64,000 nucleotides of DNA from Xiphophorus maculatus (lineage: Eukaryota > Chordata > Actinopteri > Cyprinodontiformes > Poeciliidae). Made by a program: the position numbers and the translations under genes. The stretch is from contig NC_036443.1 of assembly GCF_002775205.1 (NCBI RefSeq), forward strand, positions 13,341,373 through 13,405,372, read 5' to 3'. Below are positions 36,901-39,900 of this stretch, piece by piece. Under the pieces are notes generated by a model. The model had not been told where the DNA came from and searched no databases. It saw only the letters and a program-made list of their open reading frames with translations. Numbering within the stretch: the first letter of the stretch is position 1; each line of letters begins with the position of its first letter.

Positions 36901-39900
36901 TGAGAACTTTACTGCTCTAACTGTACTAATGCACGTTATTTTTAGACACAAGAGGTGAAAGTTATTGGTAACAAAGGATCATTTTACATGGGAAAACTGT
37001 AAAGTTAGTCATCTGGTTAAAATATGTTCTGTTAAACTGGTTTTCAAACAAATTATCCAAACAATGAATGGTCCTACCTTGCTGACCAGTGCAGGTGCAA
37101 TAGTTTTATTGATATGCTCAACAGCTTTAGAGACACCTGCAAGGGACAAGCAGACCATGACTGACAGACAGGAGAAGACCATGCAACGCAGGCCACACAG
37201 ATGAACACAGAGCATCCGATTTATGTCGATGTATGAGTAAATTATTAAAATATTGTCCACTAATTCAGCAGTTTATGCCACCATTTACTTTGTTTTTTTA
37301 AATCTGTGAACATCTGTTAGTGCCTGACGGACATTAGTCTCCAGAAGCAAACTCATTCTCCATGCTGCTGTGCAGTGCAAAGAGAGTCACCCTTATTTTC
37401 CACTTTATTTACCTGGTTACATAATGCAGGCGCCAAGAACTCATTTATATATTTAACAGCTCTTTTGACTCCTAACAGGAGGAACAGAAATGGGGAAATT
37501 GAAAAGAAAACATGAAGAAAGAGAGCAATAGTTTATAGGAGTGTTGAAATGAGCTGAAAGGTTGCAAAAGGATAGAAGTGACCAGAGTTTAGAGAGAGAA
37601 CAAACAGAGATAAGTTACCTTTGCCCATGTAGCGTGTTTTGTCATTGTCGCGGAGCTCTAGAGCCTCATAGATACCTGTGGAAGCACCGCTGGGGACTGC
37701 AGCCCTGAAGAGACCTTAAACAAGACATTTGGGCTTACAAATTCTGCCTCATGGATAAAGAAAGCAGCATTTAAATACAACTTCACCAAGACAGCCTGCT
37801 TCCTAAATTATAATTCTCTGGTGCACAATCTGAAACATCTGAACCCTGTGGTCAAGACCACAGTGAGTAAAAGGCACAAATATTCGTGCCCTCCAGTCAG
37901 AGGGGAATAAAACACGCAGGGAGGAAGTCGTGCTGCAGATGGCGGTAATGTAATAAGTGAATAAAAAAAACCCAAACCCACCAACTGAGCATGTGCAGAA
38001 AATCTGTGGCAGGATATCAAGTCCTGCCTACACAAGCTTAAACCCACTTCAGTCAAAACCTAGAAAAAAAAAGAAAAGAAAAAAAAAGCACTATTCGTTT
38101 TAGTCAGTGGAGCAGCAGAGATTGTATTCTGAGGGGATTTAGTGCTAAGGCCAAGGGGGCACAGTCGCTGTCGAGGCCCTAAGGTAATGCTTAACAAATC
38201 ATCTGCAGCTAGAAATCGGCACGCAGCAGCAGGGGGCTGCAGGCTGCAACCAATCAGACCATAAATAAGGGGCTTTGCCTCTTCATCTGCCAAATGCAGA
38301 AAGAGTAAAAGCTGGCTGAATAAAACGCAGGCTGTTTACACAGTTCTACGGGTTAGCAAAAAAGATGGTGGAAATGTCCAGCAGGACATGAAAAGGCACA
38401 ATAATGATGGCCTGACTGGATGCAGCAGACGCTCTAATGGGGTTTAGCTGCTGTCAAAACACAGCTGCTGACTTAAAAGGTTGTCTTTATAAAAAAAAGA
38501 AAAAAAGAAGTAAAAACAGACAAGTTTTACAGTTCACAGAACATGTCAGCCACCCTAAGCTGAGGAAAAGATGGCTGTAGAGTAGCTCTGCAGGGTTTTC
38601 AGGCCAGTCCAACTCTTCCATGTCAGTGGTCATTCAGGTTGCTTCATTAACATTCTCTGGACATTTCAGGGGGTTGAGCAACTTCCTTTGTTTGAACCCA
38701 AAGAACAGAAACGACCCCAATCCGATACAAAAAAAATAAAAAATTAATAGATGGTGGGGAGGCCATTAGTTAATTAAATGAACAAATCTAAACCTCAGCC
38801 AAATGTGTCACAGGTTGAATAATTTACAGCTCAACTGAGCAAAGCAATTTAATTCAAAGATTTTAAACAGATTACTTTTCTGGGCCAAAACAGGTTTATC
38901 ATTTTATTTGAGGTTCAACTTCCCAGTTCAACTTTAGAGGGTAAAGAAAAAAAAAAAAAAAAGACAAATTTATGGGGTAAAACATATGCCATTTCATTTT
39001 AATGTTCATGAAAAAAAGAAGCAAAAAACAGCTTGTTGGTGCATTTATAGACATGTTTTCTTCATGCCAATCAGAGCCAATCAAAGAGAAAACATGTAAC
39101 ATCCTTTTTGACAGATTGTCCCACCTCTAATCCCAAATAAATTCAGAGTCTTGGTAAAAATGCTGCATGGTGTTGTGATCCAGGGCCGTTACAGTAACAG
39201 TGCGCTGCGGAGGCCGTGTGAAGTTACAGGAGCTATTTTCAAACATTTGGTTTACCTGATCTACTCTGCAGCTGCAGCTGGCAGCAGCACCAGGTCAACA
39301 ACCAGCTGAACTGTCCTCAGCTTAAGTGATACTTTCCAGGAAGACATCTTCATTACAAGATAAAGAATTAAAAAAAAACTATTTTAAGGTTTTCGGTTTT
39401 CTTCTAAACGTGGCTGGCAGCTAGTCGTTTTCCTTCAAACAAAAATCTGCAGCAGCTTCTTTGATGGAAGTGGTTTTGAATTCAATGAAAAGTGAAGAAT
39501 TACTAGTTTATTACCATTTATGAAACAAAGAATATGGTCCCCAAACTTTATCAAATACCAACTTTGAGGGGGGGGGGAAACATTTTTTTATTTTTCAGTA
39601 TTTTAATGTTTCGAGTGACTTAACCCTTGTATTTCTATGTTTCTGGTCCAACCATAAATCTGATGCATAACCGACAATTGCAAACAGTAATGGACGACAT
39701 TTTTTGCTTCAAAAAAATATTCTGATGCAACTCTGGAAAAGACTATTGCTCTGAGCAAAAAGGAGTTGGGCCATCACTGAAGCTAAGCAAGCCTAAAATA
39801 GAATCTCAACACAAAATATATTGCAGAAAGCACAGACATTCTCAACTCTAATGATTAATATATTAACTGATTAATAAATGACAGACCTGGCAATTAAGAT

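Follow-up and report, generated by a model that had tools for sequence, protein, structure and literature searches.

A probable ancient pair of mutually exclusive exons 4 in an ENO1-type enolase gene of Xiphophorus maculatus

Pyruvate kinase catalyzes the next glycolytic step after enolase and uses the product of enolase. Its gene, PKM, is a described system that resembles the locus analyzed here in that homologous exons (exons 9 and 10, giving PKM1 and PKM2) are swapped in a glycolytic enzyme encoded by a single gene. M1 and M2 are two tissue forms made from one gene (PMC12487847), and exchanging the exons changes how tetramer formation is allosterically controlled (PMC7954323). Homologous exons used in a mutually exclusive manner have been described before and are mostly ancient in human genes; the substitutions of tandem-duplicated exons in these genes, as described in the accessible portions of PMC4465641 and PMC9741552, are likewise one-for-one swaps of a homologous region. 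Within the main texts of papers on such exons, including PMC4465641, PMC9741552, PMC5740500, and PMC7954323, neither enolase nor ENO1 is named. Here, we present an analysis of an enolase gene in a 64-kb window (the whole stretch of X. maculatus DNA that was analyzed). We propose that this gene carries an ancient, tandem-duplicated, mutually exclusive pair of ENO1 exons, that splicing factors choose between them, and that the choice swaps one helix of the protein; we estimate the probability of this proposal as a whole at roughly 0.9.

Based on the gene model and Pfam, the gene lies on the minus strand, and its exons 2 to 12 as modelled span 33927..40758 and encode a protein of 432 aa. A first-pass annotation of this DNA had proposed two 59-nt exons of the same phase, 276 nt apart, with good splice sites and open frames, and the gene model reproduces their coordinates and peptides. 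Exon 4a, the alternative copy, is located at 37413..37471 and exon 4b, the canonical copy, at 37078..37136, and each encodes a 20-aa peptide. The two share exon 3 (37619..37714) as the upstream partner and exon 5 (36704..36773) as the downstream partner; all four exons are on the minus strand, as are intron 3-4a (147 nt; 37472..37618), which contains a possible PTB-type regulatory tract, and the GT-AG intron 4a-4b (276 nt; 37137..37412). Exon 4a has the acceptor ...ctgttag and the donor CAG/gtaaataa, and exon 4b has the acceptor ...cccttgcag and the donor AAG/gtaggacc. In the spliced models, both exons are entered in phase 1, left in phase 0, and open throughout. The two peptides share 10 of 20 residues, as had been noted before, and the two exons are identical at 35 of 59 nucleotides. 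The 4b peptide matches residues 61-80 of human ENO1 at every position (human sequence from PDB 2psn), and a protein of the killifish Nothobranchius shares 94.0% identity with the 4a isoform. As a control for chance resemblance, every AG-59nt-GT segment in the window, 440 over the two strands, was scored against the 4b peptide; exon 4b itself scored 20/20 and exon 4a 10/20, and none of the remaining 438 segments exceeded 6/20, the top-scoring one having in-frame stops.

The spliced models with exon 4a alone or exon 4b alone each give 432 aa, whereas the models with neither exon or with both give 84 aa and 101 aa, respectively, followed by a stop, in agreement with the earlier statement that including both or neither breaks the frame. 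This frame logic, together with proteins annotated with 4a in place of 4b across the jawed vertebrates, supports the reading of a mutually exclusive pair, and we consider it very probable that 4a and 4b form such a pair in an ENO1-type gene. One pre-mRNA would thus yield two enolases of full length whose only differences lie in residues 61-80, and nonsense-mediated decay, predicted from the breakage of the frame, could act as a back-up against double inclusion or double skipping.

In the remainder of the window, Pfam identified three carbonic anhydrase exons on the plus strand within 56044-58493, followed by an exon for a pentraxin domain on the same strand at 59916-60677, and an exon encoding the C terminus of a sugar transporter (Sugar_tr) on the minus strand at 61587-61823. 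The order of carbonic anhydrase exons and pentraxin domain is that of non-mammalian CA6, and ENO1, CA6, and SLC2A5/7 adjoin one another in human. The transporter exon is probably part of an SLC2A gene beside CA6. A perfect TAGAA tandem repeat of 17.2 copies is present at 30106-30191, and Rfam gave no match at gathering scores within the 64-kb window.

To follow exon 4a across species, we used three homology searches of protein databases. Residues 56-96 of the 4a isoform retrieved 46 proteins, and the corresponding residues of a ray protein retrieved 29 proteins, partly overlapping with the first set; the database behind both searches was clustered at 90% identity, and only relatives with short words in common can be reached in this way, so the absence of lamprey, hagfish, amphioxus, and human from the matches is no evidence that these organisms lack the exon. 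The remaining search used a 140-aa piece, for which only short proteins were candidates, and among the 120 matches listed of 7,986, a single protein was loosely flagged (P0020; 12 vs 10 identities), and it lacks the 4a signature. Altogether, 49 of the 184 database proteins from these searches have the 4a signature, i.e., 39 of the 46 from the first search and 10 more from the search with the ray protein. Exon 4a is joined to exon 3 and exon 5 in 34 of the 49; nine lack the join to exon 5, three hold 4b as well, and three lack the junction with exon 3. The 34 proteins with both joins include ones from cartilaginous fish (Hemiscyllium, Mobula, Hemitrygon, Carcharodon, Scyliorhinus, Mustelus, Heptranchias, Cetorhinus, and Pristiophorus), ray-finned fish (Polypterus, Nothobranchius, and others), and tetrapods (frogs, caecilians, passerine birds, opossum, whale, pig, and deer mouse). 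Four species (Discoglossus, Mustelus, Cetorhinus, and Carcharodon) each have a pair of 434-aa proteins that carry isoform labels, and the members of each pair differ at 12 positions, every one of them inside residues 61-80.

Nine of the enolases (P0158-P0166) have the exon 3-4a stretch and no join to exon 5. Their sequence continues with VN in six cases, reaches the exon 6 sequence FGANAIL in two, and goes elsewhere in one; VN is the expected translation past the 4a donor (gtaaat) in X. maculatus. Faulty gene models or exon skipping would seem to account for these proteins.

Because 4a proteins span cartilaginous fish to mammals, the 4a/4b pair is probably at least as old as the ancestor of the jawed vertebrates, as judged from protein sequences; the question of its age raised in the first-pass annotation is thereby answered as far as cartilaginous fish, in which the database proteins include both exons. 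The same set of proteins bears on two other explanations. Exon 4a could be a regulatory poison exon, such that joint inclusion with 4b or its use out of frame lowers ENO1 output by nonsense-mediated decay and the 4a protein itself is unimportant. The truncation at 101 aa when both exons are included and the three of 49 proteins that contain 4a and 4b together fit this idea; however, a poison exon needs neither an open frame nor nearly the same 4a residues from sharks to mammals, and 34 of the 49 proteins join exon 3, 4a, and exon 5, making this explanation very unlikely. Alternatively, exon 4a could be a dead relic in X. maculatus, and the entries from other species the product of homology-driven gene callers. 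Most of the 49 4a proteins indeed look like automatic gene predictions, and the nine without a join to exon 5 would be in keeping with a relic. Against this, the frame and the splice sites of 4a are intact in this fish, a near-identical 4a peptide is found in separate lineages, and frogs and sharks have separate isoform labels; we therefore give the relic explanation hardly any credence.

Mutually exclusive use of 4a and 4b also agrees with the alpha-enolase isoforms X1 and X2 in the database annotation of vertebrates, which represent the same exon swap; however, these exist as annotation only, and no account of them as an ancient duplicated exon pair was found. Exon 4a is, thus, already known to gene callers, and we do not claim priority for it. 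The human RefSeq set has, we assume, a third ENO1 isoform, which may be the 4a form. MBP-1, an N-terminally shortened ENO1 product, resembles the 4a form in being an alternative product of ENO1 but involves no exon swap and arises by an unrelated mechanism. In the literature covered, namely titles, abstracts, and main-text passages, including PMC7954323, PMC12487847, PMC10940350, and PMC10849765, we found no description of the pair. The protein named "Alpha-enolase isoform 3" in the accessible portion of PMC12386888 is ENOB (P13929) and, hence, not the 4a form.

The conservation of the two peptides was compared in a panel made up of six matched groups. Two of its rows draw on different organisms for the two peptides, namely whale (4a) and human (4b) for the mammals and Mobula (4a) and Amblyraja (4b) for the rays. 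In all eight pairs of a cartilaginous and a bony vertebrate, identity is higher for 4a (14-17/20) than for 4b (11-14/20). Over all 15 pairs of the panel, 4a is ahead in 10 and 4b in four, with one tie; among the bony vertebrates themselves, 4b is often the better conserved peptide, e.g., 20 vs 16 identities between teleost and mammal. R64, K67, Y68, F72, L73, C78, and Q80 are invariant in the eight 4a sequences of the panel; outside the panel, the exceptions in 4a are T or S at 78, Y at 72, T at 67, and H at 68. From the conservation of 4a over the span from cartilaginous to bony vertebrates, we infer that the 4a peptide itself has been under selection. An ancient and selected function of the exon pair is, accordingly, highly probable in our judgment.

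A genome search, in which only the best candidates were scored and which may therefore have passed over further enolase genes, gave four additional enolase loci in X. maculatus. By resemblance, we label these eno1b-like (C20), eno2-like (C3 and C13), and eno3-like (C14). All four have an exon 4 of the 4b type, which is also where 4a queries match best, and no separate 4a-like exon was seen in these four loci. On average, the exon 4 peptides of the eno2-like and eno3-like loci have 10.7-12.1 of 20 residues in common with 4b and 6.1-9.1 with 4a, and the corresponding values for the eno1b-like locus are 14.4 and 9.0. Because the eno1b-, eno2-, and eno3-like exons are all closer to 4b than to 4a, 4b is the ancestral-looking copy in these sequence comparisons. 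Intron 3 of the eno1b-like gene (L011) is ~811 nt long, and we saw neither a 4a exon nor a pyrimidine-rich tract in it. This locus looks as if 4a had been lost after the teleost duplication.

At the protein level, Pfam detects Enolase_N in both isoforms (192.7 and 198.9 bits) as well as Enolase_C. In AlphaFold2 models of the 4a and 4b isoforms from frog, based on alignments of 15 rows and with mean pLDDT values of 75.8 and 74.8, a helix at residues 63-78/79 is present in both, and the 4a model matches human enolase (2psn) with a TM score of 0.85. These models are modest, with low confidence at residues 39-60 among others, and surface exposure and dimer contacts are not readable from them. The first-pass annotation had suggested that the swap changes the net charge, which we did not find, as both peptides of X. 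maculatus have a net charge of +2 (His not counted). It had also listed Lys64, Lys71, and Lys80 as lost in 4a, where they are replaced by Arg, Glu, and Gln; these replacements are as claimed, yet 4a has lysines of its own at positions 63 and 67. Because the conserved residues specific to 4a lie within a single helix or at its end, we suggest that catalysis is likely kept in the 4a isoform and that swapping residues 61-80 in this helix of the N-terminal domain may tune partner binding, stability, or modification. In this respect, the locus would differ from PKM, in which the swap acts on allostery; we know of no allosteric role for the N-terminal-domain helix of ENO1. The predicted helix common to both peptides and their equal net charge in this fish would also be expected if mutually exclusive splicing of the two exons made almost no difference to the protein, both copies being kept only since the loss of either disturbs splicing. 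The seven residues that are invariant in the eight-sequence 4a panel (with exceptions outside it at 67, 68, 72, and 78) and the four paralogous loci that do without 4a argue against this explanation, and we regard it as improbable.

The choice between 4a and 4b would, according to our proposal, be made by splicing factors. Exclusion by steric hindrance or by U2/U12 incompatibility does not fit the locus: the intervening intron is 276 nt long, no match to a U12 donor or branch point was found in the three introns around 4a and 4b, and every yTnAy site found in the 110 nt next to the 4b acceptor is 167 nt or more away from the 4a donor. Intron 3-4a consists of 75% pyrimidines, has an 80-nt AG-free stretch before the acceptor AG, and contains 15 PTB-like tetramers in its 147 nt. 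Among 18,244 overlapping windows of the same size on both strands, at least 15 tetramers occur in 23 (the intron's own window included), and the pyrimidine content is reached by four. The intron has 10.2 PTB-like tetramers per 100 nt, compared with at most 3.7 in the 3'-terminal stretches (up to 150 nt) of the ten other introns of the gene. However, the count is no higher than in dinucleotide shuffles of the same intron (15 vs 16.9, sd 2.8), and it follows that the unusual feature of intron 3-4a is its composition. An AG-free stretch of equal length also precedes exon 11.

Among the paralogues, intron 3 of the eno1b-like gene has three tetramers in its last 147 nt and at most seven in any 147 nt. 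One eno2-like intron 3, which is without 4a, has 70% pyrimidines and five tetramers in an 80-nt slice, its borders being approximate; the eno1b-like, the other eno2-like, and the eno3-like introns are not pyrimidine-rich. Upstream of exon 4b, by 43 nt, is a TGCATG motif of the RBFOX type (37180..37185, minus strand). This motif occurs 28 times on the minus strand of the window, corresponding to ~0.12 expected in 276 nt, and its presence here could be due to chance.

Control by PTBP1 and RBFOX is known for PKM and other genes. By analogy, we speculate that the leading candidate for the choice would be repression of the PTBP1 type, acting via the pyrimidine-rich intron that precedes 4a, that an RBFOX-type factor could help from upstream of 4b, and that such a switch would lead to the use of 4a in differentiated tissues, for instance brain or muscle. 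Because the eno2-like intron 3 without 4a is also pyrimidine-rich, we lowered our estimate for this particular form of control and consider it doubtful.

The ancestor of the jawed vertebrates lived over 400 million years ago. It is conceivable, and we propose it only tentatively, that a second, splice-made alpha-enolase has been kept for all of this time, with a 4a helix under its own and partly stronger constraint and with a specific regulatory or partner-binding role, and that it is switched in parallel with PKM. Few enzymes have been studied as intensively as enolase, and ENO1 has numerous moonlighting functions. Should jawed vertebrates as a rule produce both forms, antibodies, knock-outs, and modification maps directed at residues 61-80 of ENO1 would see only one of them, and exon swaps would then tune two successive enzymes of glycolysis, enolase and pyruvate kinase.
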